Shown here piece after piece: positions 6,609 to 44,001 of a stretch of 64,000 bases of DNA. The stretch lies in the NCBI GenBank assembly GCA_017508385.1, contig JAFVZB010000068.1, positions 1 to 64,000 of the forward strand. Reading direction: 5' to 3'. Source of the stretch: Lentisphaeria bacterium. Lineage in GTDB: Bacteria; Verrucomicrobiota; Lentisphaeria; Victivallales; Victivallaceae. Made by a program: the position numbers and the translations under genes. Position 1 is the stretch's first letter, and every line of letters begins with the position of its first letter. The notes under the pieces were generated by a model. It saw nothing but the letters and a program-made list of their open reading frames with translations, did not search any database and was not told the DNA's origin.

Positions 6609-9551
6609 TTATTTGTTGCTCAGGAAAGTATAGATGTTTATACTCTTGTATTCCTTTGCATTCTGGGCGAAAGTCCAGTCAGCATTTTTTCCGGTCGAGT
6701 TTCCGAAACCGAAATCGGGATTAGCCGAGTGAAATCCGTTGAGAGCGAAGATGGTGGTCTTTGCTTTGTAATCGTGTATCTGCATTGAACCGTATCCGCC
6801 GCTGGGGATATACATATCGCCGAAGTCGTAGGTTTTGCTGCTGGCTCCGGGAATGTTTATCTGATTTTGACCGGCGTAGTTGTTGGACCAGAACTCAATG
6901 TTTGCCTTGTCTATGCTCTTTTGGGTGTATCCGGGAACGTTTCCTCTGACCTTGACGTTGTTCACATATTTCTGGAATTTGATTTTTGTGTCTTTCAGCG
7001 GAACTCCCACGAGTTTTGCATCTTTGGTATAGGCATCCATTGATACCTCAAGCCACTGGAACTTTCCGCTTTGAGTGGTTGCGGTCACCAGATAAGTTAT
7101 GCGTGAAAACGGTTTGTTTTCCCGGGCACGCACATCGATATGGCGTTTACGGGTCTTGACATTGTAGCTTTCGACCAGACGGTTTCCGGCATTTTTGATG
7201 TCGTTGATGAGAGTGCCCACCTGCTGATCGAACTCGACACCGCCGATAAAGGTGTAAACGGTGATGTTTTTGTACTCTTTTCCGCTTTTGGTGAAGGTCC
7301 AGTCGGGATTTTTTCCGAAAGTGGCATTGCCGAAACCGAAGTCAACGTTGGAGGACTGCAGGTTGTTGATGGCGAAGATGGTGGTCTTTGCTTTGTAGTC
7401 GTGCAACTGCATCGAGCCGTAACCCATCGATGAAGAGATCTCATCGCCGAAATCGTAGTTCTGACCTGAAGCTCCGGGGATTTTAACTGCGTTGGCACCG
7501 CCGTAGTTGTGGGGCCAGAATTCGATGTTTCCTCTATTGATGACTCTTCCGGCAAACTGCGGAACGTTTCCGAGAATGGAAATGTTGTTCACATATTTCT
7601 GGAACTTGATTTTAGTGTCTCTGAGCGGCATACCGACAAGTTTGGCATCGCTGGTGTAGGCATCCATGGTGACAGCGAGCCACTTGTAATCGTTGTTTTT
7701 GTCGGTCGCAGTGATGAGATAGGTGACGGTGGTGAAGGGTTTTTTATCCTGAGAACGCACATCGACGAGACGTTTGCGTTTTTTGACATCATACTTTTCC
7801 ACCAGACGGTTGTTGTTGGCGATGAGAGCCTTGACGATTTCCGCTTCGTCAGCCTTCTTCTCAATGCGGAAAGCTCCGAGCGGAAGTCCGTTTTCGTTGA
7901 AGAGTTTTCCGGCGCAGACATGGAGCCACATATAGCGGAGATTGACGGGATTGGAAACCTCATCCGACCAGACGATAAGCTGATTGCCTCTTGCTGTGAC
8001 ATGTGCCTTTTTGAAATTGCAGGTGGCATCCGAGACCTGGAACGTATCGACACTGCTCCAGTCTTTTTCAACTTTCCAGTTTTTGACGTTCTTGAAAGTG
8101 AGGATGAATTTGCCGTCTTTCACCTCATGTTTGATCAGGCGCGGATAGAGGGCGTTGATATTGCTCTTGCCGTAGTCCCTGCTGAGAGCAAGGTCGGCAA
8201 GACGGTATCCGACGGTCTTTTTGTCACGGGGATGGATATCGGTAAAGTCGCCGACATCGTTGATGACGACCATACCCACCTTACTGTCGTTGGCATCTTC
8301 AAAAGCCTGCTGCGCCTCCCAGAGTTGAGCGAGACTGGTTTTGTTGCCTCCGTAGGTGTAGGGCGCAAGCTGCACATAGTAGAAGCGCATATCGGGATTG
8401 TTGAAAACCTTTCTCCATCCGTTGAGCAGAGCCTGCATCTTGTGGGCGTAAAGCATACCGTCTCTGAGGTTGGAGCATCCCTGATACCAGATGGCACCGC
8501 GGATGGCGTAGGGCAGATAGGGCACGATCATCTTATTGTAGATGGCGGTAGGAGTCCTTCTGTCGATATGGGAAGTGTCAAGCTCCGAGGGGAAAGCCGG
8601 AGGCATGGGCAGAATTTCTCCTGATTCGCTTGCCTGTGCGAAGGCAGTCATCCATTGTGCGTATGCGGCCTGAGTATTTTTTGCAAATTTTTTGTAAGTG
8701 GCAGTGCCGGGAACTTTGGCGTTGACACTGTCGGCGATATTTTTGAGCTCGGGAACTGTGTCGAAGCCGCACGGAGGAGTCCAGGGTTCAATGCGGGTTC
8801 CGCCCCAGTGCGAGGTGATGAGTCCGATGGGGATGTTCATCTCACGGTGGAGCCTGGTGCCGAAGAAGAACGCCGTAGCAGAGAACCGCTCAGTGTTTTT
8901 CGAGCTCATCGGCTCCCACTTGACCTTGAAAGAGTCGTCAGGAGTGGCAGAGGTGCCGTAAGGACGGGTCACGACGATCCTGATCTGCGGAAAGTTTGCC
9001 GCTTTTACATATTTGTCGCCATCGGCGGCTCTCCAGCGGGGACGGTTGGTCCACATCGGCATTTCCATATTCGACTGACCGCTGCAAAGCCACACCTCTC
9101 CGACGAGGATATTTTTGACGGAAACACGCTCTTTGCCGCAGGTAACGGTCATGGTACGGTTGACTTTGCTCGCTTTCATCGGAGCAAGATAAGCTATCCA
9201 TCTGCCGCATTTTCCGGCAGTGGCTTTCACCGTCTGCCCGGCAAACTCCACCGTGACTTCAGCTCCCGGAGCGGCTTTTCCCCACACCGGAACTTTCATC
9301 TCTCTCTGGAGCACCATGTTGTCGCTTATGACATTGGCAACAGAAAATTTTGTGTTTACAGCGCACGGTTTTCTGTCACACGGTTTCGCAGCGGCGGGAG
9401 CCGGCTTGACATCGTTTTTTACCGGGGGCTCTACGACCTTTTTTTCTGCTGTTTTTTCAGCGGTTTTGACCTCGGTTTTACCGGAACTGATACATCCGGC
9501 AAAAGCAAGGCAGAGCGCAGAGACAAGAATGAATGTGTGTTTTTTATTCAT
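6609..9551 (-). CDS. SGNH-type acetylesterase lipoprotein with two C-terminal repeats
   Basis: The 980-residue protein begins with a lipoprotein signal ending LAFAGC (C20), then a Lys/Glu/Pro-rich linker. The catalytic part (about 65-565) is of the sialate O-acetylesterase type: CSGQSNM at 156-162 (nucleophile S160), IWYQGCSN where relatives have YQGESN, and a late DIHP Asp-His pair. Such enzymes remove acetyl groups from sialic acid or plant polysaccharides. Residues 570-777 and 778-980 are two similar copies of an unrecognised domain rich in aromatic and Gly residues (KFQKYVNN, YDFGD, YGSMQ-HDYKAKTTIFA, NPDFGFGN), plausibly carbohydrate binding. Its own promoter and terminator make it monocistronic. 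Outer-membrane anchoring is likely. Confidence 0.85.
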   Translation of the reverse strand: MNKKHTFILVSALCLAFAGCISSGKTEVKTAEKTAEKKVVEPPVKNDVKPAPAAAKPCDRKPCAVNTKFSVANVISDNMVLQREMKVPVWGKAAPGAEVTVEFAGQTVKATAGKCGRWIAYLAPMKASKVNRTMTVTCGKERVSVKNILVGEVWLCSGQSNMEMPMWTNRPRWRAADGDKYVKAANFPQIRIVVTRPYGTSATPDDSFKVKWEPMSSKNTERFSATAFFFGTRLHREMNIPIGLITSHWGGTRIEPWTPPCGFDTVPELKNIADSVNAKVPGTATYKKFAKNTQAAYAQWMTAFAQASESGEILPMPPAFPSELDTSHIDRRTPTAIYNKMIVPYLPYAIRGAIWYQGCSNLRDGMLYAHKMQALLNGWRKVFNNPDMRFYYVQLAPYTYGGNKTSLAQLWEAQQAFEDANDSKVGMVVINDVGDFTDIHPRDKKTVGYRLADLALSRDYGKSNINALYPRLIKHEVKDGKFILTFKNVKNWKVEKDWSSVDTFQVSDATCNFKKAHVTARGNQLIVWSDEVSNPVNLRYMWLHVCAGKLFNENGLPLGAFRIEKKADEAEIVKALIANNNRLVEKYDVKKRKRLVDVRSQDKKPFTTVTYLITATDKNNDYKWLAVTMDAYTSDAKLVGMPLRDTKIKFQKYVNNISILGNVPQFAGRVINRGNIEFWPHNYGGANAVKIPGASGQNYDFGDEISSSMGYGSMQLHDYKAKTTIFAINNLQSSNVDFGFGNATFGKNPDWTFTKSGKEYKNITVYTFIGGVEFDQQVGTLINDIKNAGNRLVESYNVKTRKRHIDVRARENKPFSRITYLVTATTQSGKFQWLEVSMDAYTKDAKLVGVPLKDTKIKFQKYVNNVKVRGNVPGYTQKSIDKANIEFWSNNYAGQNQINIPGASSKTYDFGDMYIPSGGYGSMQIHDYKAKTTIFALNGFHSANPDFGFGNSTGKNADWTFAQNAKEYKSINIYTFLSNK
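6612..7844 (-). repeat. Two tandem ~200-codon repeats in the esterase gene
   Basis: Codons 570-777 (7844-7221) and 778-980 (7220-6612) encode two clearly similar domains. Shared blocks in order are NRLVE-Y-VK-RKR, KPF---TYL-TAT, MDAYT-DAKLVG-PL, DTKIKFQKYVNN, IEFW--NY, IPGAS--YDFGD, GYGSMQ-HDYKAKTTIFA and DFGFGN. The copies have diverged throughout, which argues for an old duplication rather than an assembly artefact. Confidence 0.9.
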
Positions 9552-9598
9552 GACCCATTTTACCTTATATAGTTATAGTTTTCAGGCAGTTTACTGTT

Positions 9599-9627
9599 AA
9601 GATACACCGTAAGCAACGAAAAATCAA
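9599..9627 (-). promoter_or_regulatory. Promoter of the SGNH esterase gene
   Basis: On the minus strand TTGATT (9627-9622), 17 bases and TATCTT (9604-9599), followed by an untranslated leader of about 40 bases. Confidence 0.65.
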
Positions 9628-9654
9628 GCGGCAGAACGCAGCTTTGACGCAATA

Positions 9655-9688
9655 TAAACAAAAGACTCCGGAAAAATCGTCCGGAGTC
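9655..9688 (-). terminator. Terminator after paaK
   Basis: On the minus strand GACTCCGGA, a seven-base loop and TCCGGAGTC form a perfect nine-base-pair stem (9688-9664), followed by TTTTGTTT. It lies ten bases after the paaK stop. Confidence 0.9.
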
Positions 9689-9698
9689 AGGGAAGTGA

Positions 9699-11021
9699 TT
9701 ATTTTGCGGTACGCTCGTCAAAGACCCTCTTTGCCTTGCCCTCGCTGCGGGCGATGGTGTTGGGGTCAACGAGTTTGAGTTTGACACGCAGTCCGGTGAT
9801 GGATTCGATGGAAGAAGATATTTTCTTGCGTATCTTTTCCATCTTTTCCGCATCGCTGGAAATCATATCCGGGCGGAGCTCTGCATCGACCTGAATGTTA
9901 TCCATGCCGTTCTCGGTGTAGAGGATGATGCGGTAGTTCGGAGTCGTTCCCTCGATGGCGAGCAGTGCGCTCTCTATCTGTGAGGGGAATACATTGACTC
10001 CGCGGATGATGAACATATCATCACTGCGGGAGCTGATCCGGTCGATACGGCGGATGGTGCGTCCGCACTCGCAGGGCTCACTGATGATGCGGGTGAGGTC
10101 ACGGGTGCGGTAACGGATCATCGGCATGGCGTACTTGCTCAGAGTGGTAAGTACCAGCTCACCGGTTTCGCCGTCGGGAAGCACCTCACCGGTATCGGGG
10201 TCGATGATTTCGGGATAGAAGTGGTCTTCATAAATGTGCATACCGTTGTGCTTGCGGCACTCCATGGCGACGCCGGGACCGATGATTTCCGAGAGTCCGT
10301 AAATATCGAAAGCCTCGATGCCCGCACCCTGTTCGATGCGCTCACGCATACCGGCAGTCCAGGGTTCTGCGCCGAAAACTCCCGCCTTGATGGGGAGCTC
10401 TCTCAGGTCGATGCCCTGACGATCCGCCTCTTCGATGAGGTGGAGAAAATAGCTGGGAGTACACATCATGGCGGTCACTCCGAAGTCACGGATGCGCATG
10501 ACCTGACGTCTGGTGTTGCCTCCGCTGGCGGGAACAACAGTAGCTCCGAGCATCTCTGCTCCGTAGTGGGCACCGAGACCTCCGGTGAAGAGACCGTAGC
10601 CGTAAGAGACCTGAATGATATCATTTTTGCTGAGCCCGGCACCGGCAAGACCGCGGTACATCACTTCGTTCCAGACGTTGATATCATCTTTCGTGTAAGC
10701 CACAACGATGGGTTTTCCGGTGGTTCCGCTCGAGGCGTGGAGACGGACTATCTCGCTTTTTGGAACTGCAAAGAGTCCGAAGGGATAAGTATCACGCAAA
10801 TCGGTCTTTTTCATAAAGGGCAGTTTTGCAAGATCCTTGAGTTCCCTGACATCGCACGGCTTGAGTTTGAGTTTATCCATGCGGCTTCTGAAGAGTCCGA
10901 CATTCTCATAAGCATGGCGGACAATGCTCTGCAGTTTGCAAAGCTGCATCTCACGAAGATACGCAGGATCGATAAAATCTTTTGACAACAATTCGCAGTT
11001 GTCAGTCGTAATGCGTCCCAT
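9699..11021 (-). CDS. paaK: Phenylacetate-CoA ligase family protein
   Basis: The 440-residue protein is an adenylate-forming ligase of the PaaK family, which joins aryl acids such as phenylacetate to CoA using ATP. The phosphate-binding loop RLHASSGTTGKPIV is at 93-106; later come DIYGLSEIIGPGV, the GETGELVLTTL segment and YRTRDLT, with an AMP_C-like C-terminal domain. In anaerobes such ligases often handle aryl acids from amino-acid fermentation, but no partner gene is adjacent, so the substrate is open. It has its own promoter (11066-11094) and terminator. GGAG lies about ten bases before the ATG. Confidence 0.9.
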   Translation of the reverse strand: MGRITTDNCELLSKDFIDPAYLREMQLCKLQSIVRHAYENVGLFRSRMDKLKLKPCDVRELKDLAKLPFMKKTDLRDTYPFGLFAVPKSEIVRLHASSGTTGKPIVVAYTKDDINVWNEVMYRGLAGAGLSKNDIIQVSYGYGLFTGGLGAHYGAEMLGATVVPASGGNTRRQVMRIRDFGVTAMMCTPSYFLHLIEEADRQGIDLRELPIKAGVFGAEPWTAGMRERIEQGAGIEAFDIYGLSEIIGPGVAMECRKHNGMHIYEDHFYPEIIDPDTGEVLPDGETGELVLTTLSKYAMPMIRYRTRDLTRIISEPCECGRTIRRIDRISSRSDDMFIIRGVNVFPSQIESALLAIEGTTPNYRIILYTENGMDNIQVDAELRPDMISSDAEKMEKIRKKISSSIESITGLRVKLKLVDPNTIARSEGKAKRVFDERTAK

Positions 11022-36522: not shown

Positions 36523-37296
36523 ATGAAGAACAAAATAAAAGTAACCGTCTGGAACGAGAACCGCCATGAAACACACGATGGCATTATCAGGAAAAAACGT
36601 GCAGGTGATGATGCCTGCCGTATGCACTATCCTCAGGGAATGCACGCAGCCATCAAAGCGGCTCTTGACCTCGATGGCAGTTTTGAAGTTGATTGTGCTT
36701 GGCTGGATAAGGATGATGAGCATGGTTTGAGCGAAGAGGTGCTCGCAAACACCGATGTCCTCTTCTGGTGGGGGCACTGCGCCCATGGTGAAGTGAAAGA
36801 TGAGGTGGTTGACCGCATCCAGAAGCGTGTGCTCGAGGGAATGGGACTGGTTGTCATCCACTCAGGACACAAATCAAAAATTTTCATGCGCCTGATGGGA
36901 ACAAGCTGCGACTTGCTCTATCGGGTCGCCGCAGAAAAAGAGCGGGTCTGGGTAGTTGAAAAAGCCCACCCCATCGCCGAGGGATTGCCCGCATATTTTG
37001 AATTGCCGCACACTGAGATGTACGGCGAGCGTTTCGAGATACCGGCTCCGAAGGACACAGTTTTCATCTCATGGTACGAGGGAGGCGAGGTGTTCCGCAG
37101 CGGGTTGACTTTTGAGCGCGGATACGGCAGGATATTCTATTTTGCTCCCGGCCATGAGGCATACCCGATATTCCATGACAAAAATGTGCAGAGAGTGCTC
37201 TGCAACGCCGCAAAATGGTGCGCTCCGCGTTACCGGTCATCCTACGGCTGCAAGTGCATGGAGCCGCTCGAAGAGTTGAAAAGCAGAGGTGAGTGA
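36523..37296 (+). CDS. ThuA domain protein
   Basis: The 257-residue protein belongs to the ThuA-like class I amidotransferase-related fold: KVTVWNENRHE near the start, DVLFWWGHCAHGEV, GLVVIHSGHKSKIF and YFAPGHEAYP at the end. ThuA proteins are linked to trehalose and other sugar use, especially 3-keto sugars, and often pair with Gfo/Idh dehydrogenases, as here. The stop lies two bases before the ATG of that gene. The exact reaction is not known from sequence. Confidence 0.85.
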   Translation: MKNKIKVTVWNENRHETHDGIIRKKRAGDDACRMHYPQGMHAAIKAALDLDGSFEVDCAWLDKDDEHGLSEEVLANTDVLFWWGHCAHGEVKDEVVDRIQKRVLEGMGLVVIHSGHKSKIFMRLMGTSCDLLYRVAAEKERVWVVEKAHPIAEGLPAYFELPHTEMYGERFEIPAPKDTVFISWYEGGEVFRSGLTFERGYGRIFYFAPGHEAYPIFHDKNVQRVLCNAAKWCAPRYRSSYGCKCMEPLEELKSRGE

Positions 37297-37298
37297 CA

Positions 37299-38360
37299 AT
37301 GAAAGATAAACTTCGTGCCGGAGTCATCGGTATGGGTGTCGGGGTAAGGCACGCCTGCGGATATCTTGAACACAAAGATGTTGAACTGGTCGCCGTCGCC
37401 GCCAAGGATGATTTGCACAAAGTAAGTGAAAAGTGCCCCGGTTTCACCGGTAAGGTGTACGAAGATGCCTATGAGATGCTCGCAAAAGAGAAACTTGATA
37501 TCGTTTCCGTTGCAGTACCGAATTTCCTGCACAAGGAGTTCACCATTGCCGCTCTTGAGTCAGGAGCTCATGTTCTCTGCGAAAAACCCATGGCACTCAA
37601 CGCTTCCGAGGCTCAGGAAATGCTCGATGCTTCCAAACGGTGCGGAAAAAAGCTGGGAATAAATTTTTCATACCGTTTCTATCCGCAGAGTCAGGCGATG
37701 AAATCCATCGTTGATGAGGGATTGCTCGGCAATATCTACTACGGACGCACCGTCTGGCTGCGCCGCCGCGGTATTCCCGGTTTGAACTCCACCGCAAGAA
37801 CATACGGTACCTGGTTTTTTGACAAAAAGCGTGCCGGAGGCGGTCCGCTGATCGACCTCGGAGTTCACCGTCTCGATCTGGCTCTCTGGCTGATGGGATA
37901 TCCCGAGCCCGAGTGGGTGATGGCAAGCACATACGACAAGCTCGCCCGCCGCATGGCAGCAGAAAACGGAGTCGAGTACTCCGTTGAAGATATGGCGTGC
38001 GCCATGATAAAATTCAAAAACGGAGCAACTCTCGAGCTCGATGCCGCCTGGGCGGTCAACATCAAAGAGCGTGAGTTCCAGCAGACCCGCATTGCCGGCG
38101 AAAAGGGCGGACTTTTCCAATATAACGTCAATGAGGAAAAGAAGTACGAAATCGAGTACTATTATGACATTGACGGAAGGCAGTTCGACAGCAGGCTTCA
38201 CACGCTCACCGATGTGCCAAGTGCCTACTCTCAATTTGTTGATGCTGTGCGGGATGACAAACCGTTTTCCGTAACTCCTGAACAGGGAGTCACCGTAATG
38301 CGTATTCTCGATGCCGTTTACAAATCAGCAGCAGAGGGAGCTCCGGTAAAAATCGGTTAA
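37299..38360 (+). CDS. Gfo/Idh/MocA family dehydrogenase
   Basis: The 353-residue protein has an N-terminal Rossmann fold (AGVIGMGVGVRHACGYLEH), the CEKPMALNASEA loop with the conserved Lys and a C-terminal alpha/beta domain (GGGPLIDLGVHRLDLALWLMGYPEP). Such enzymes oxidise or reduce sugars and inositols with NAD(P). ATG at 37299 follows GAGGTGAG. The pairing with ThuA suggests a keto-sugar route. A bidirectional terminator follows. Confidence 0.9.
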   Translation: MKDKLRAGVIGMGVGVRHACGYLEHKDVELVAVAAKDDLHKVSEKCPGFTGKVYEDAYEMLAKEKLDIVSVAVPNFLHKEFTIAALESGAHVLCEKPMALNASEAQEMLDASKRCGKKLGINFSYRFYPQSQAMKSIVDEGLLGNIYYGRTVWLRRRGIPGLNSTARTYGTWFFDKKRAGGGPLIDLGVHRLDLALWLMGYPEPEWVMASTYDKLARRMAAENGVEYSVEDMACAMIKFKNGATLELDAAWAVNIKEREFQQTRIAGEKGGLFQYNVNEEKKYEIEYYYDIDGRQFDSRLHTLTDVPSAYSQFVDAVRDDKPFSVTPEQGVTVMRILDAVYKSAAEGAPVKIG

Positions 38361-38374
38361 GTTCAGTGATGCAG

Positions 38375-38414
38375 AAAAAGACCCGTCGGAAAACTCTTCC
38401 TGACGGGTCTTTTT
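38375..38414. terminator. Bidirectional terminator between gfo and GH35 genes
   Basis: AAAAAGACCCGTC and GACGGGTCTTTTT are exact reverse complements around a 14-base loop, so the structure ends with a U-run on either strand. It lies between convergent stops at 38360 and 38428. Confidence 0.93.
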
Positions 38415-38427
38415 GATTACCTGAAAA

Positions 38428-40233
38428 TCACTCAAAAATATAATCTCCGAGTCCGGGATGCTCTTGAAATGTCACCTTGTCATCAAGTTGATACTGTTCA
38501 AATATGACGATTTCATTTCTTCCCTTTTTGAGCAGAGCCGAGGGAACGTAAAGAGCGGTGTCGGGACCGATGTTCCAGTATTTGCCGATGTTGAAACCGT
38601 TTATCCAGATGCATCCCTTTTGACCGGGAAACTTGATAAAGGTTTCGGCGATCTCATCGACATTGAAATATCCTTTGGCGAAAACAGGGTCGTTTGCGTT
38701 TTTTGACACTCCGCTTTGCCATGATATTTTGCTGAGGATATCATCTTCCATTTCCAGCGGAAAGTGGGTAAAGTTATCCTGCCGCTCAAAGTTCACCAGA
38801 ATTTGTTCGACGCCTTTGCGCTCAGTTCCGCACGCAGGACCGTAGTTGACGTAGCCGGTGTTTTCCACGAGCACATCAAGGACTGCACCTGAGTTGTTGA
38901 TTTCCACCTCAAGCATATCGCTTTTACCGCTGCGCCAGACGGAGCCTGCGTATTTTCCGTCAACCCAGACCTGAGCACGGTCACGCAGACCTCTCAGACG
39001 GATAGTTTCCGCTCCGAGCGGACCCCGCAAAATTGTGCGGTAAAGCAGATATCCCTGCCGCATACCGAGCGACTCCATGCTTTGCGGGTCTCCGTGCACG
39101 GATTTTCTGCTGATGTCATCAAGTACATCAAAGAGTCTTGCCGAGCTTTCAAAAGCAACTTCACCGTAACTTCTCTTGACGGTGGGAGCAGGAACTTCCG
39201 CCGGAGTTGCCGGGTTGTATTTTCTTATCACATCCTGAATAGCTTTGAATTTAGGTGCGGCATCACCCCACTCCTGCATGGGCGCATCGTAATCGTAACT
39301 GGTTACTCCGCAGGCGTAGTTGTCAAAAGGAGGAGTTTCCATGTTTGCACCGTTGGTGAACCCGAAGTTTGTACCACCGAGCAGCATATAGAGATTGACC
39401 GAAGCTCCGCGGGCAAGGATTTTATCAAGCTCATTGCAGAAGTGCTTCTGTTCATCGGCATTGGCACGGTTGCGGGGAACTCCGCAATGCGTGATGCCGC
39501 CGTTGCCGCCTGTCCAGTATTCCATGCAGAACTCAGGACCGTAAGGAAAGAGCTCTTTGCGCATGGCAAAACTCTTTTCAGTGTCGCAGTCAGGACCGAT
39601 GGTGATAGTCACCGGCAGCTCAGGAACAGACCCGCCGAGCAGGGTTATCGGAAACTTCGGGCAATCCGCCGTCACCAGCGGAACATCAAATCCGTGGTCA
39701 GTGAACATCTTTGCCACAGTGCGCAGATATTCTGTATCCCTGCCGAACCAGCCGTATTCGTTTTCCACGACACCCATGATGATGTTGCCGCCTTTTGAGT
39801 ATTGACGGCAGGCAAGCTGAGGCAGCAGCCAGTTGAAGTACCTTTCGAGTTTTTCAAGGTACACCTTGTTCATGCGCCGCACTTTGCATTTGTCAAGAGC
39901 GCAGAGCCACGGAGGCAGAGCTCCGTTGTTCCACTCTCCGCAAATAAATGGACCGGGGCGCACAATGACATAAAGTCCGAGCTCTTTTGCCGTATCAATG
40001 AAACGGCAGAAATCGAGTATGCCGGAGTTGTCAAAGATGCCCTCTCTCTTTTCGTGCTGATCCCAGCAGAAATAGGTCTCGACAGTGTTGATGCCGATAG
40101 CTTTTGCCCGCTCGAGACGGTCACGCCACAATTCGTGGTGGGTGCGGAAATAGTGGATGGCTCCTGAAATTATCTGTGTCGGCTTGCCATCTATGAGAAT
40201 GTTTTTTTCATCAAGAGTTACGCTTCTCTTCAT
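38428..40233 (-). CDS. GH35 beta-galactosidase
   Basis: The 601-residue protein has the GH35 TIM barrel: SGAIHYFR, NTVETYFCWDQHE, VRPGPFICGEWNNGALPPWL, acid/base E159 in VENEYG and nucleophile E238 in CMEYWTGG, followed by small beta-sandwich domains (GFNIGKYWNIGP, VPSALLKKGRN). It would release terminal beta-galactose or a related sugar. No signal peptide is seen, so cytoplasmic. It is the last gene of a four-gene operon; its ATG overlaps the previous stop as ATGA. Confidence 0.92.
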   Translation of the reverse strand: MKRSVTLDEKNILIDGKPTQIISGAIHYFRTHHELWRDRLERAKAIGINTVETYFCWDQHEKREGIFDNSGILDFCRFIDTAKELGLYVIVRPGPFICGEWNNGALPPWLCALDKCKVRRMNKVYLEKLERYFNWLLPQLACRQYSKGGNIIMGVVENEYGWFGRDTEYLRTVAKMFTDHGFDVPLVTADCPKFPITLLGGSVPELPVTITIGPDCDTEKSFAMRKELFPYGPEFCMEYWTGGNGGITHCGVPRNRANADEQKHFCNELDKILARGASVNLYMLLGGTNFGFTNGANMETPPFDNYACGVTSYDYDAPMQEWGDAAPKFKAIQDVIRKYNPATPAEVPAPTVKRSYGEVAFESSARLFDVLDDISRKSVHGDPQSMESLGMRQGYLLYRTILRGPLGAETIRLRGLRDRAQVWVDGKYAGSVWRSGKSDMLEVEINNSGAVLDVLVENTGYVNYGPACGTERKGVEQILVNFERQDNFTHFPLEMEDDILSKISWQSGVSKNANDPVFAKGYFNVDEIAETFIKFPGQKGCIWINGFNIGKYWNIGPDTALYVPSALLKKGRNEIVIFEQYQLDDKVTFQEHPGLGDYIFE

Positions 40234-41024
40234 CTTGCAGTTCCCCTTATGATTTTTCCGGGTATCGGAATGGAGTATTCTCTGCCGGGATACTTGGCAG
40301 AAAAATAGTCGGCAAACAATGTCGGGTCTGTACTGTTGAAAGTAAACATATCGAAGTGAGCCGGAATGGTCAAGCTGATATCGAGAGCTCCGGCAAGATC
40401 GACAGCCTCCTGATAAGTCATGTTGCCGATGCAGTTGGCTTTGTAACGCACGGCATCACGTCCGTTGATGGGCAGGAACGCAAAGTCGTAAGGAGCAAGG
40501 GCTTTGAGTTTGGTCTGCAACCCCTCGTAAATGCAGCAGTCACCCGAGTGGTAGAATTTTATTCCGTCACACTCGATGACGAATCCGAGAGCCGTAAAGT
40601 TTCCGTCGGAGTCAGTTTCCAAAAGCTCGTGAGCCGAAGCGACGGCGGTTATCTTTACGCCGTCAAGCTCAATGGTCTCTGAGTCATTGAGCGCAGATGT
40701 GCGCTCTGCCGGAACTTCCCCGACGTTCACCGCTCTCGGAAATACAAATACCGCATCCTTCGCCGCCTTCACCATATCGGGCAGGGCGGCCCGGTCGATG
40801 TGGTCGGCGTGGTCGTGGGAACCGGTTATGATATCAGCAACACACACCTCATCAGCCCGGCAGAGCACGGGAACGTTCCTCTCCTCAAGGTCGGTCAGAA
40901 ACGGGTCGAGCCATATTGTTTTATTTTTTGTTTTCACTACAAAACTGTGCTGACCGAGCGGCAGAATGGCATACTCTTTTTCCTGCAGTGAAAGGGAATT
41001 GAATTGTTCGATAAGAGTTTTCAT
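40230..41024 (-). CDS. UlaG-like metallo-beta-lactamase fold hydrolase
   Basis: The 264-residue protein has the metal motif SHDHADH at 69-75 (H70, H72, D74, H75) and a later YHSGDCCIYEGL, resembling metal-dependent hydrolases of the UlaG (L-ascorbate 6-phosphate lactonase) group. In this operon, between a short-chain dehydrogenase and a GH35 gene, a sugar lactonase or phosphodiesterase role is plausible but not shown. Overlaps of four bases at both ends tie it to its neighbours. Confidence 0.8.
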   Translation of the reverse strand: MKTLIEQFNSLSLQEKEYAILPLGQHSFVVKTKNKTIWLDPFLTDLEERNVPVLCRADEVCVADIITGSHDHADHIDRAALPDMVKAAKDAVFVFPRAVNVGEVPAERTSALNDSETIELDGVKITAVASAHELLETDSDGNFTALGFVIECDGIKFYHSGDCCIYEGLQTKLKALAPYDFAFLPINGRDAVRYKANCIGNMTYQEAVDLAGALDISLTIPAHFDMFTFNSTDPTLFADYFSAKYPGREYSIPIPGKIIRGTAR

Positions 41025-41749
41025 ATCATCAACTTGCCTCCGTCAACAATGATGTTTTGACCGGTTATTCCCTTTGCCTGCTCAGAGAGCAGAAAGAGCA
41101 CAGCCGGAACGACACTGCTTTCATCGAGCAGGAACGGCAGCGCCTGATCTCTCAGCAAATCGGCTTTATCCTGTTCGGTGACAAAATCGGCAAGCTGCCG
41201 TTCAGTCATGATCCAGCCGGGAGAGACCATGTTTGCCCGGATCATCTCTCTGCCGAGTTCTCTCGCCAGAGAACGGGTGAAACCGATGAGTCCTGACTTT
41301 GCCGCACCGTAGAGAGTAAACGGAGCAAGTCCGAGCATCCAGTTGGTCGTGCCGATATTGACGATGCTTTTTCCCTCACCCTTGCGTATGAGCTCGAGAG
41401 CCGCACGGGAAACAGAAAAGGCACTCTTCAAATTGAGCAGAATAAATTTATCAAACTCCTCTTCGTCAGCCTCATCGAAAGTTACACGTTTGTCACAGCC
41501 TACGTTGTTGACGAGGAAATCGATTTTTCCGTCAGCTGCGGCAATTTCTGCAAACCACTCTTTTATCTCTGCGGAGTTCGAGATATCACATTTACGGTAA
41601 ACCGCATTTGAGTTATCAATGGTTTTGCCGGAGTTTCTCGAACAGTACCAGACTTTTGCTCCGCATTTGGCCAAGTCAGCGGCAACGGCTTTGCCAATTC
41701 CGCAGCTGCCTCCGGTGACAACTGCGGTTTTTCCATGAAAATCGTACAC
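41021..41749 (-). CDS. Short-chain dehydrogenase/reductase
   Basis: The 242-residue SDR has the cofactor motif TGGSCGIG at 12-19, NNVG at 81-84, and the catalytic pair Y147 and K151 in LYGAAKSG. The usual catalytic Ser 13 residues before the Tyr is Thr (T134, in NIGTTNW). The protein ends with GQNIIVDGG, typical of classical SDRs acting on sugars or hydroxy acids. It lies 11 bases after the zinc dehydrogenase and overlaps the hydrolase gene. Confidence 0.88.
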   Translation of the reverse strand: MYDFHGKTAVVTGGSCGIGKAVAADLAKCGAKVWYCSRNSGKTIDNSNAVYRKCDISNSAEIKEWFAEIAAADGKIDFLVNNVGCDKRVTFDEADEEEFDKFILLNLKSAFSVSRAALELIRKGEGKSIVNIGTTNWMLGLAPFTLYGAAKSGLIGFTRSLARELGREMIRANMVSPGWIMTERQLADFVTEQDKADLLRDQALPFLLDESSVVPAVLFLLSEQAKGITGQNIIVDGGKLMI

Positions 41750-41760
41750 TTCTCTTGCCT

Positions 41761-42792
41761 CTACGGATTGATGATAACTTTGTTGCGGTTCTTTTCGCCC
41801 ATAGCCTCGACCGCCTTGTGGATATCTTTGAGCGCAAAGCGGTGAGAGACGATTTTTTCGGGATCGACCAGCTGACGCTCCATCAGACGGATAGCCGCCT
41901 GCATGGCTTCAGGAGTCGTACCGAAAGATGCATCCATTCTGCCCTCGAGGAAGTGGGTGTAGCCTCCGTCAAGCTCGAATTTTTCGTGAGTTGTGATACC
42001 GAATACGTTCCACTTGGTGCCTCTGCGGCGGAGTGCGGTCATCAGATTGACCGCTGCGATGGGACCTGCCGCCTCAACTACGAGGTCGGGACCGTTGGGA
42101 ATGATATCATAAACCTGTTTCACCGGGTCTCCGGCATTGGGGTCGATGGCGTGAGTAGCTCCGAGGGAAAGCGCATTGTTTCTGGCATAGTCGGATGAGT
42201 CGATGGCAATGAGCCTTCCTGCGCCTGCGGCTTTTGCGACCATGAGACAGAGCAGACCGATACCTCCGGTACCGATGACAACCACATCATCCCCGAGGTG
42301 CATCTCACTCTTTTTAATGACTCCTTTCCACGCTCCTGAAAGCGGTTCGGTGAGGGCGGCGGCATCGAAAGAGATGTTGGCGGGTTTGAGGAAAATACAC
42401 TCAGCTCCGGTGACCATGTATTCGGCGAAAGCTCCCGGCAGAACGATATCCGGACCGTCTCCGCCGGTGGTGTAGGCGTGTTCGCAGTAGTGAGTGTTTC
42501 CGTCACGGCAGCTTGAACAGACTCCGCAGTATCCTGACGGCTGACAGATGACATCATCCCCGACCTTGAAGTGGGTGACTCCCGCTCCGAGTTCGACGAT
42601 AGTTCCTGACGGCTCATGACCGACGATGCAGGGCAGTCCGACATTGCGGCGGATACCCTTGATGGCTTTGTAGTCAGTTGCGCAAAATCCGCAGCTGCGG
42701 ACTTTTACCAATACCTGACCGGATCCCGGATGCGGCATCGGAACCTCTTCAAGGCGCAAATCATTAAAATCGTGTAATACTGCTGCAAGCAT
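41761..42792 (-). CDS. Zinc-dependent medium-chain dehydrogenase
   Basis: The 343-residue protein is of the sorbitol/threonine dehydrogenase type. Catalytic zinc residues are C37 in GFCATD and H59-E60 in VGHEPSG; structural zinc cysteines are C89, C92, C95 and C103. The NAD domain has GTGGIGLLCLMVAKAAGAGRLIAID. It probably oxidises a sugar or polyol. AGGAGAG precedes the ATG at 42792. It is the first gene of the operon ending in GH35, divergent from the ROK regulator. Confidence 0.9.
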   Translation of the reverse strand: MLAAVLHDFNDLRLEEVPMPHPGSGQVLVKVRSCGFCATDYKAIKGIRRNVGLPCIVGHEPSGTIVELGAGVTHFKVGDDVICQPSGYCGVCSSCRDGNTHYCEHAYTTGGDGPDIVLPGAFAEYMVTGAECIFLKPANISFDAAALTEPLSGAWKGVIKKSEMHLGDDVVVIGTGGIGLLCLMVAKAAGAGRLIAIDSSDYARNNALSLGATHAIDPNAGDPVKQVYDIIPNGPDLVVEAAGPIAAVNLMTALRRRGTKWNVFGITTHEKFELDGGYTHFLEGRMDASFGTTPEAMQAAIRLMERQLVDPEKIVSHRFALKDIHKAVEAMGEKNRNKVIINP

Positions 42793-42875: not shown

Positions 42876-42904
42876 TTGAAAAACAGAGAAGCTCATGCTA
42901 TATT
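42876..42904 (+). promoter_or_regulatory. Promoter of the ROK regulator gene
   Basis: TTGAAA (42876-42881), 17 bases and TATATT (42899-42904). An ATG at 42910 lies six bases after the -10 box, so the transcript may be leaderless if that start is used. Confidence 0.65.
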
Positions 42905-44001
42905 ATAATATGAAAAACAAAACTAAAAATTTTATCCGTCAGAAACAGATGCGCAGCGAGACCGTCAGGAGTCTTGTTGAGTGCATATCCCGTGGTATTG
43001 ACACAAAGCGCAAAATCATGGCGGAGACCGGATTTTCGTGGGGAAGCGTTGCTACTTTGACCACTGAATTTCTCGATAGCGGAGTAATCGTTGAATACAA
43101 TGTGGAAAATGACCGCCGCACCACCCATTACCGGCTTACAAACGACGAGTATTACGCCCTCGGAGTCGAGGTGGCAAGCAGAAAAATTTCCTTTTCACTT
43201 GCTGCTGCCGACGGAACTTTGCTGGAAACGCTCTCTTTTGCCGTTGAGCCGATAAATAACACCAATTGTTGTGAAATTATCAAGTCGGCATACGAAAAAT
43301 ACAGTGCTGATTCCCGGTTTGACAATGATAAAATACTGGTGACGGCGTGTGCGCTCACAGGAGCAGTTGACGGTGAAAATCTGGTATGGCTTTTTTCTCC
43401 GCACCATCCTGAAATAAAGGAGTGTGAGCTTGCCGTACTCAAAACGGTTTTGCCGGGCAAACTCAAAGTCGAGCACGATATATTTTCCAAAGCACGTTCA
43501 ATATATTTTCACCATCATATTGAAGAAAAAAGTTCGGTTTTCATCCACGTCGGCGAGGGTATCGGACTTGCCGCCTGCACGCAAGGTGAGTTCTTTTCCG
43601 GAAAACGCGGTTTTTCCGGTGAGATAGGTCATATTCCCTTCGGCAGTAATAACAGCGCCGTCTGCCGGTGCGGAAAAAAGGGATGCCTTGAGTGCTCTCT
43701 TTCGCTTGAAGCACTCAAAAAATACGGAGTCTCATCTTTAGCAGAACCCTTTACTTTTCTCTGCGTTACTGCGGTGAACCTCTTTGACCCCGAATATCTT
43801 GTCGTCGGAGGAGAGGCGGTCGAAGAGATGATTTTTTCAAACTCCGCACACTGGCAGCAGACGATACGCAGCGGAGCATGGATGCAGGCTCCTGAAAATA
43901 TCCTTTTTTACCGTATGGATGATTGCCTTACCTCTTTCGGAGCGGCACTCGGCTGCCGCCGTGAACTGGTCGATTTTATCACTCTCAACGTTTGCCGTTG
44001 A
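42895..44001 (+). CDS. ROK family transcriptional regulator
   Basis: The protein (368 residues, or 363 from the second ATG at 42910) has an N-terminal winged helix-turn-helix (RGIDTKRKIMAETGFSWGSVATLTTEFL) and a ROK sugar-kinase-like domain with the zinc motif CRCGKKGCLEC. The regular kinase phosphate loop is poorly conserved, fitting a repressor rather than a kinase. The second ATG fits the promoter better, because the first lies upstream of the -10 box. It likely senses a sugar and controls the divergent dehydrogenase/GH35 operon. Its end overlaps the convergent dus gene by 17 bases. Confidence 0.87.
   Translation: MLYYNMKNKTKNFIRQKQMRSETVRSLVECISRGIDTKRKIMAETGFSWGSVATLTTEFLDSGVIVEYNVENDRRTTHYRLTNDEYYALGVEVASRKISFSLAAADGTLLETLSFAVEPINNTNCCEIIKSAYEKYSADSRFDNDKILVTACALTGAVDGENLVWLFSPHHPEIKECELAVLKTVLPGKLKVEHDIFSKARSIYFHHHIEEKSSVFIHVGEGIGLAACTQGEFFSGKRGFSGEIGHIPFGSNNSAVCRCGKKGCLECSLSLEALKKYGVSSLAEPFTFLCVTAVNLFDPEYLVVGGEAVEEMIFSNSAHWQQTIRSGAWMQAPENILFYRMDDCLTSFGAALGCRRELVDFITLNVCR

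Follow-up and report, generated by a model that had tools for sequence, protein, structure and literature searches.

Introduction

A cluster of four genes in the genome of a Lentisphaeria bacterium encodes two dehydrogenases, a metallohydrolase and a glycosidase and raises the question of which reactions these enzymes catalyze together. The cluster lies at positions 38,428 to 42,792 of a 64,000-nucleotide stretch of contig JAFVZB010000068.1 (the window), which is part of a 2.48-Mb metagenome-assembled genome that is 86% complete (genome label G000). An earlier note on this DNA had described four genes that overlap or are separated by 11 bases, assigned them to the families given below and placed them divergent from a ROK-family regulator; the open reading frames and Pfam matches agree with this description.

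42792-41761, minus strand: ADH1, Zn-dependent MDR dehydrogenase of NAD type that opens the operon (Pfam ADH_N/ADH_zinc_N)
41749-41021, minus strand: SDR, dehydrogenase with an NADP-type signature (Pfam adh_short)
41024-40230, minus strand: MBL, UlaG-like metallo-beta-lactamase-fold hydrolase (Pfam Lactamase_B_3)
40233-38428, minus strand: GH35 glycosidase, BgaC-like, that closes the operon (Pfam GH35 and beta domains)

ADH1, an NADP-type partner and MBL probably form the three-enzyme core of an undescribed route that oxidizes a free sugar via its lactone. To the specific order of aldose to lactone by SDR, lactone to aldonate by MBL and aldonate to keto-acid by ADH1, followed by a phosphorylated ketose, we assign a probability of about 0.42. 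GH35 would free the sugar, and C1 of the freed aldose would be oxidized to the lactone by the NADP-type dehydrogenase, which is SDR here and an MDR enzyme (ADH2) elsewhere. MBL would hydrolyze the lactone to the aldonate, and ADH1 would oxidize a secondary hydroxyl of the latter with NAD to yield a keto-aldonate. The keto-aldonate could be converted, perhaps by decarboxylation, to a ketose and then be phosphorylated by a PfkB or xylulokinase-type kinase, a step that in the window genome would be encoded outside the operon. The earlier note did not recognize the gene set as a described pathway, and we likewise found no paper or described pathway with this set in the searched literature.

Conservation and co-occurrence of ADH1 and MBL

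We searched 388 genomes sampled across the phylum for orthologues of ADH1 and MBL. ADH1 orthologues, 68-80% identical, were found in 22 genomes and MBL orthologues in 31. The best plasmid-borne relatives of ADH1 obtained in a plasmid search shared less than 37% identity, and as far as searched ADH1 is a distinct family. Both genes occur together in 18 of the 22 ADH1 genomes where 1.8 were expected (P~3e-19), in 14 of 18 cases after collapsing by genus (P 2e-11) and in all 11 ADH1 genomes of the window's order (P 3e-13), in tests that ignore deeper relatedness. In seven genomes (G009, G010, G011, G006, G305, G216 and G420) ADH1 and MBL are unlinked and sometimes lie on separate contigs. Because the signal survives the genus-level collapse and also occurs in these unlinked cases, we argue for a functional coupling of ADH1 and MBL, which in turn supports the proposed oxidation via a lactone. 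No reaction has been assigned to this dehydrogenase family, conserved to such a degree across the phylum, or to the hydrolase that co-occurs with it.

Where the genomic context could be read, an NADP-type dehydrogenase follows ADH1 in 24 of 25 loci (SDR in 15, the MDR-type ADH2 in 9) and MBL follows in 17 of 25; gene-order statements on relatives' loci rest on tblastn positions. The exact order ADH-SDR-MBL-GH35 recurs in locus L165 of a different family of the same class (G369), and the order MBL-GH35 is also found in L113. Conservation of the gene order, which the earlier note had proposed as its own check, is thus seen phylum-wide for the set of ADH, partner and MBL and in L165 for all four genes.

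The NADP-type partner and a possible redox epimerization

All 15 SDRs are classical SDRs by their invariant glycine-rich motif and Tyr-x-x-x-Lys, and likewise share Thr134, Tyr147 and Lys151. Their cofactor motif is Cys36-x-Arg38, with R38 present in 15/15; the Cys-x-Arg motif is that of the NADPH-dependent tropinone reductases. ADH2 carries Gly-Gly-Arg, which is also of NADP type, in 9/9 sequences. SDR and ADH2, although members of different superfamilies, therefore appear to substitute for each other while the cofactor type is kept. This exchange, together with the near-constant presence of an NADP-type enzyme after ADH1, supports an oxidation of the aldose as the partner's task. So do the nearest models: the best NCBIfam models for SDR are D-xylose 1-dehydrogenase and glucose 1-dehydrogenase, and in one ADH2 the Glu_dehyd_C domain is recognized with a score that exceeds the cut-off. 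The D-xylose 1-dehydrogenase (XylB type) model NF053674 is the best curated model for SDR even though its 175 bits lie below the cut-off of 400. A profile match to sulfoquinovose 1-dehydrogenase was obtained as well.

An oxidase role of both dehydrogenases is plausible, but judged by cofactor signatures a redox epimerization would fit equally well. ADH1 would then use NAD to convert a hydroxyl group of its substrate (sugar, polyol or aldonate) to a ketone, which the NADP-type partner would reduce to the opposite configuration. The L-idonate and L-glucose pathways work in this manner. In such a scheme MBL would only supply the aldonate from a lactone and a kinase would take the product. The fixed motifs suit such an oxidation followed by a reduction, since besides R38 of SDR and Gly-Gly-Arg of ADH2 the NAD-type aspartate D198 of ADH1 is invariant in 23/23 orthologues. 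In addition, SDR matches gluconate 5-dehydrogenase (1vl8), and in Luteolibacter LG18, from the same phylum, the NAD dehydrogenase LguD and the NADPH reductase LguC form such a pair (PMC12632266). However, the best curated SDR models are aldose 1-dehydrogenases, NADP enzymes are also known to oxidize C1 (LguA, PMC12632266), and the lactone-forming step would have to be encoded elsewhere. We consider redox epimerization doubtful, yet it is the alternative that survives best.

ADH1 and a possible cyclitol route

ADH1 retains the ligands of the catalytic zinc; the region of the catalytic residues Cys34, Cys37, His59 and Glu60 and the four structural cysteines are invariant in all 23 orthologues. 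An AF2 model of ADH1 contained one loop with pLDDT <50 and was not used further. ADH1 reached 188 bits with the IolM scyllo-inosose 3-dehydrogenase model NF041097 (cut-off 450) and 189 bits with the L-threonine 3-dehydrogenase model TIGR00692 (cut-off 458), both below the respective cut-offs. A further Zn-dehydrogenase of the window genome (G000:C45:6112-7113, L128) scores 215 bits with IolM, above ADH1, and has one in-frame TGA within the matched stretch.

Of the NCBIfam models, IolM ranks in the top two for ADH1 and first for the ADH1 of L126. This would agree with a cyclitol route in which an inosose is oxidized and its ring opened hydrolytically, as by IolM (Zn-ADH) and IolN (hydrolase) of Thermotoga maritima, with SDR as the first dehydrogenase. 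An IolO-like epimerase is encoded in L043. Taken together, ROK, Zn-ADH, MBL-type hydrolase, PfkB and an AP_endonuc_2-type epimerase resemble the inositol cluster TM0411-TM0416. The comparison was made via curated models, the TM0415 structure and cluster content. ADH1 lies far below the IolM cut-off, however, and scores no worse with the L-threonine dehydrogenase model, the PfkB kinase does not match the TM0415 structure 1vk4, and the neighboring beta-galactosidases would be left unexplained. We therefore demoted the IolM/IolN idea and regard a cyclitol route as unlikely.

MBL as a UlaG-like hydrolase

The alignment of 41 MBL sequences contains a full two-metal ligand set (H70, H72, D74, H75, H132, D162 and H223) that is invariant in 41/41. 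The structure model has a pLDDT of 95.7 and its top Foldseek matches are UlaG structures, so that the designation UlaG-like in the earlier note holds structurally. UlaG possesses an N-terminal helical arm of about 30 residues and a single-metal site without a His170 equivalent (PMC3219644). MBL lacks this arm, carries the metal-site histidine H132 in 41/41 sequences and reaches only 31 bits with the curated UlaG model NF008688 (cut-off 306). Since the arm is missing and the metal site has an additional histidine, MBL is, as judged from sequence and model, UlaG-like but not UlaG.

Cousins of MBL with 31-34% identity adjoin genes for a Zn-ADH, an SDR and a LarA homologue, in two cases also for a 6-phosphogluconate dehydrogenase homologue, and LarA homologues include D-gluconate 2-epimerases (PMC7583248). 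A relative with 44% identity in L054 adjoins an ADH, an SDR, a TIM-barrel epimerase-like protein and a UlaD/HxlA-type decarboxylase. These neighbors point to aldonates and keto-aldonates. They fit the lactone-opening role that the earlier note had suggested for the enzyme, which gains support as a putative function, and together with a fold nearest to that of the lactonase UlaG they favor the order of reactions proposed here. In Planctomycetota and related bacteria, HAD hydrolase, Zn-ADH, MBL, SDR and a LarA homologue form clusters (L061, L063, L064 and L073), to which the 6-phosphogluconate dehydrogenase homologue is added in L061 and L064; these clusters represent another possible undescribed aldonate pathway. 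It is improbable that MBL is instead a phosphodiesterase or another hydrolase that has nothing to do with the dehydrogenases and is simply co-transcribed with them. Its fold relatives do comprise NAPE-PLD and UPF0173 proteins, UlaG itself is active on analogues of cyclic nucleotides (PMC3219644) and some homologues adjoin QueC, RsgA or helicase genes, but MBL co-occurs with ADH1 far above chance even across separate contigs, and in many phyla it is encoded behind a pair of ADH and SDR genes.

GH35 and a proposed link to galactosides

The GH35 domain scores 316 bits (Pfam cut-off 27) and is accompanied by BetaGal_ABD_1 and BetaGal_gal-bd. The protein matches the beta-galactosidase 4mad over its full length (E 3e-130) with no sign of a partial gene, and its catalytic glutamates, the acid/base in ENEYG and the nucleophile in CMEYW/CMEFW, lie in motifs that both align with 4mad. 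The product is predicted to be an intracellular-type beta-galactosidase. In five genomes (G000, G369, G079, G103 and G236), where about 0.13 were expected, a full-length GH35 is found at most 10 kb from the core or its MBL, although this distance was chosen after the data had been seen and sugar genes tend to cluster anyway. The data do not support a single origin of the linkage, as the GH35s concerned do not form a single clade and the tree forces five changes. In place of GH35, a GH2-LacZ is found at L161 and a GH123 at L126. Different beta-galactosidases have been repeatedly recruited to the core, and this recurrence is the strongest support for the galactoside link, on which the earlier note thus gains ground. 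It also agrees with a freed sugar as the substrate of the dehydrogenases. Beta-galactosidases of different clades and families at the core point to a sugar-oxidation route acting on galactose-containing glycans in largely uncultured bacteria.

Kinases, galactokinase and other neighbors

The earlier note had found no kinase, epimerase or transporter and had proposed a non-phosphorylating pathway. The first statement is true of the window operon but not of the relatives' loci, and the second is not supported because the relatives' operons encode a PfkB kinase (downstream in L118, L126 and L165; beside ROK in L122) or an FGGY kinase closest to xylulokinase (L166 and L168). The L126 PfkB is closest to the Bacteroides-type fructokinase structure 2qhp. 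Ketose-type kinases of this kind would agree with a phosphorylated ketose as the end point of the oxidation. In the window genome we detected four FGGY matches and no close copy of the L126 PfkB (best 28%), whose absence is not shown given 86% completeness.

Galactokinase is present in the window genome and in 130/137 genomes of its order, so that a dedicated galactose route is not required and the module is not the sole route for galactose. Loss of galT as a reason for such exclusivity was considered and rejected: of the order's 137 genomes, 136 lack canonical galT (PF01087), with or without the core, galactokinase is near-universal, and GalY has been predicted to replace galT in related bacteria (PMC5583593).

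Beside the core, ROK is also found at L122, and LacI, GntR or AraC regulators occur at other loci. URO-D-family genes adjoin the dehydrogenases at L166:3893-5998, L169:1143 and L172:3810 and could possibly act as decarboxylase or methyltransferase. In L126, PfkB is directly followed by a 358-residue open reading frame without Pfam or NCBIfam match (9474-10550), after which come two genes with GH123 domains. Near L163 there is a transketolase gene, which was not counted as support because it is found only past a release-factor gene.

Weighing the proposed pathway

Several observations weigh against oxidation via a lactone. Four ADH1 genomes have no detected MBL, and many MBL homologues of Planctomycetes and Clostridia adjoin unrelated genes. 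ADH2 profiles best match galactitol-1-phosphate 5-dehydrogenase, not glucose dehydrogenase, and a partner of NADP type would be just as typical of a reductase. No core member has a known activity, and the window operon lacks genes for a galactonate dehydratase, an aldolase and a decarboxylase. Neither galactonate dehydratase nor KDPGal aldolase was seen in the operon or the core loci, and no genome-wide search for them was made.

The proposed pathway could take a fully specified form in which galactose is oxidized to galactonolactone (SDR/ADH2, NADP), hydrolyzed to galactonate (MBL), oxidized at C3 (ADH1, NAD) and turned by decarboxylation into D-xylulose, which only at this point would receive a phosphate from a PfkB kinase or a xylulokinase-like enzyme. 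We consider this precise sequence very unlikely to be correct in every step. If true, it would be a free-sugar counterpart of the oxidative branch of the pentose phosphate pathway and an undescribed galactoside route of the PVC superphylum alongside galactokinase. Overall, the earlier interpretation is partly supported, and the gene set would represent a variant of oxidative sugar catabolism.

Operon boundaries and adjacent genes

The four genes are accompanied by the following features, the promoters being consensus matches only:

42895-44001, plus strand: ROK-family regulator, divergent from the operon (Pfam)
42864-42836, minus strand: predicted operon promoter of extended -10 type, close to consensus (11/12), TTGACA-17-TATATT and a TG ahead of the -10 box
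42876-42904, plus strand: predicted ROK promoter, TTGAAA-17-TATATT, mirroring the operon promoter, 10/12
38375-38414, both strands: bidirectional terminator-like hairpin with 13-bp perfect arms and A and T tails, read directly

ADH1 and SDR are separated by 11 bases, whereas SDR/MBL and MBL/GH35 overlap by 4 bases each. With this spacing, a promoter facing the genes and the terminal hairpin, ADH1-SDR-MBL-GH35 looks like one transcription unit bounded at both ends, and probably a ROK-controlled cassette. Because the first ATG of ROK shares bases with the -10 box of the promoter predicted for this gene, translation probably begins at 42910 or further downstream. The hairpin separates GH35 from a convergent Gfo/Idh/MocA oxidoreductase gene, which resembles iolG and levoglucosan dehydrogenase with scores below cut-offs and overlaps a ThuA-family gene; the two together span 36523-38360 on the plus strand. 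This pair was not seen adjoining the core in other genomes.

Comparison with known systems

MBL shares its fold and the HxHxDH motif with the L-ascorbate-6-phosphate lactonase UlaG but only 24% identity, and the ula phosphotransferase genes are missing. The De Ley-Doudoroff pathway degrades galactose by galactose dehydrogenase, galactonolactonase, galactonate dehydratase and KDPGal aldolase. Its first two steps would be common to the core if our model is right, whereas the core has a second, NAD-dependent dehydrogenase and ketose-type kinases in relatives, with neither of the last two enzymes encoded nearby. In the L-idonate pathway of E. coli, the Zn-ADH IdnD and the SDR IdnO act in sequence on a sugar acid. 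The core likewise pairs a Zn-ADH with an SDR, but IdnD/IdnO come without lactonase or glycosidase, and the best curated models for the core SDR are aldose 1-dehydrogenases.

The inositol operon of Thermotoga maritima and its intermediates have been confirmed (PMC5931981). Zn-ADH, metallohydrolase and ROK are common to both systems, as are PfkB and epimerase in relatives of the core, which differs in the low IolM score of ADH1, a kinase unlike TM0415, the added SDR and the linked beta-galactosidases. The lgu genes of Luteolibacter LG18 encode an L-glucose/L-galactose pathway from the same phylum that, like the core as proposed here, has an NADP aldose dehydrogenase, an NAD aldonate dehydrogenase and a divergent regulator, and a fructokinase gene in the cluster is a further likeness (PMC12632266). 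The lgu cluster encodes altronate dehydratase, tagaturonate reductase and KDPG aldolase and no metallohydrolase (PMC12632266), whereas the system presented here has no dehydratase or aldolase and instead combines the MBL hydrolase with a beta-galactosidase.

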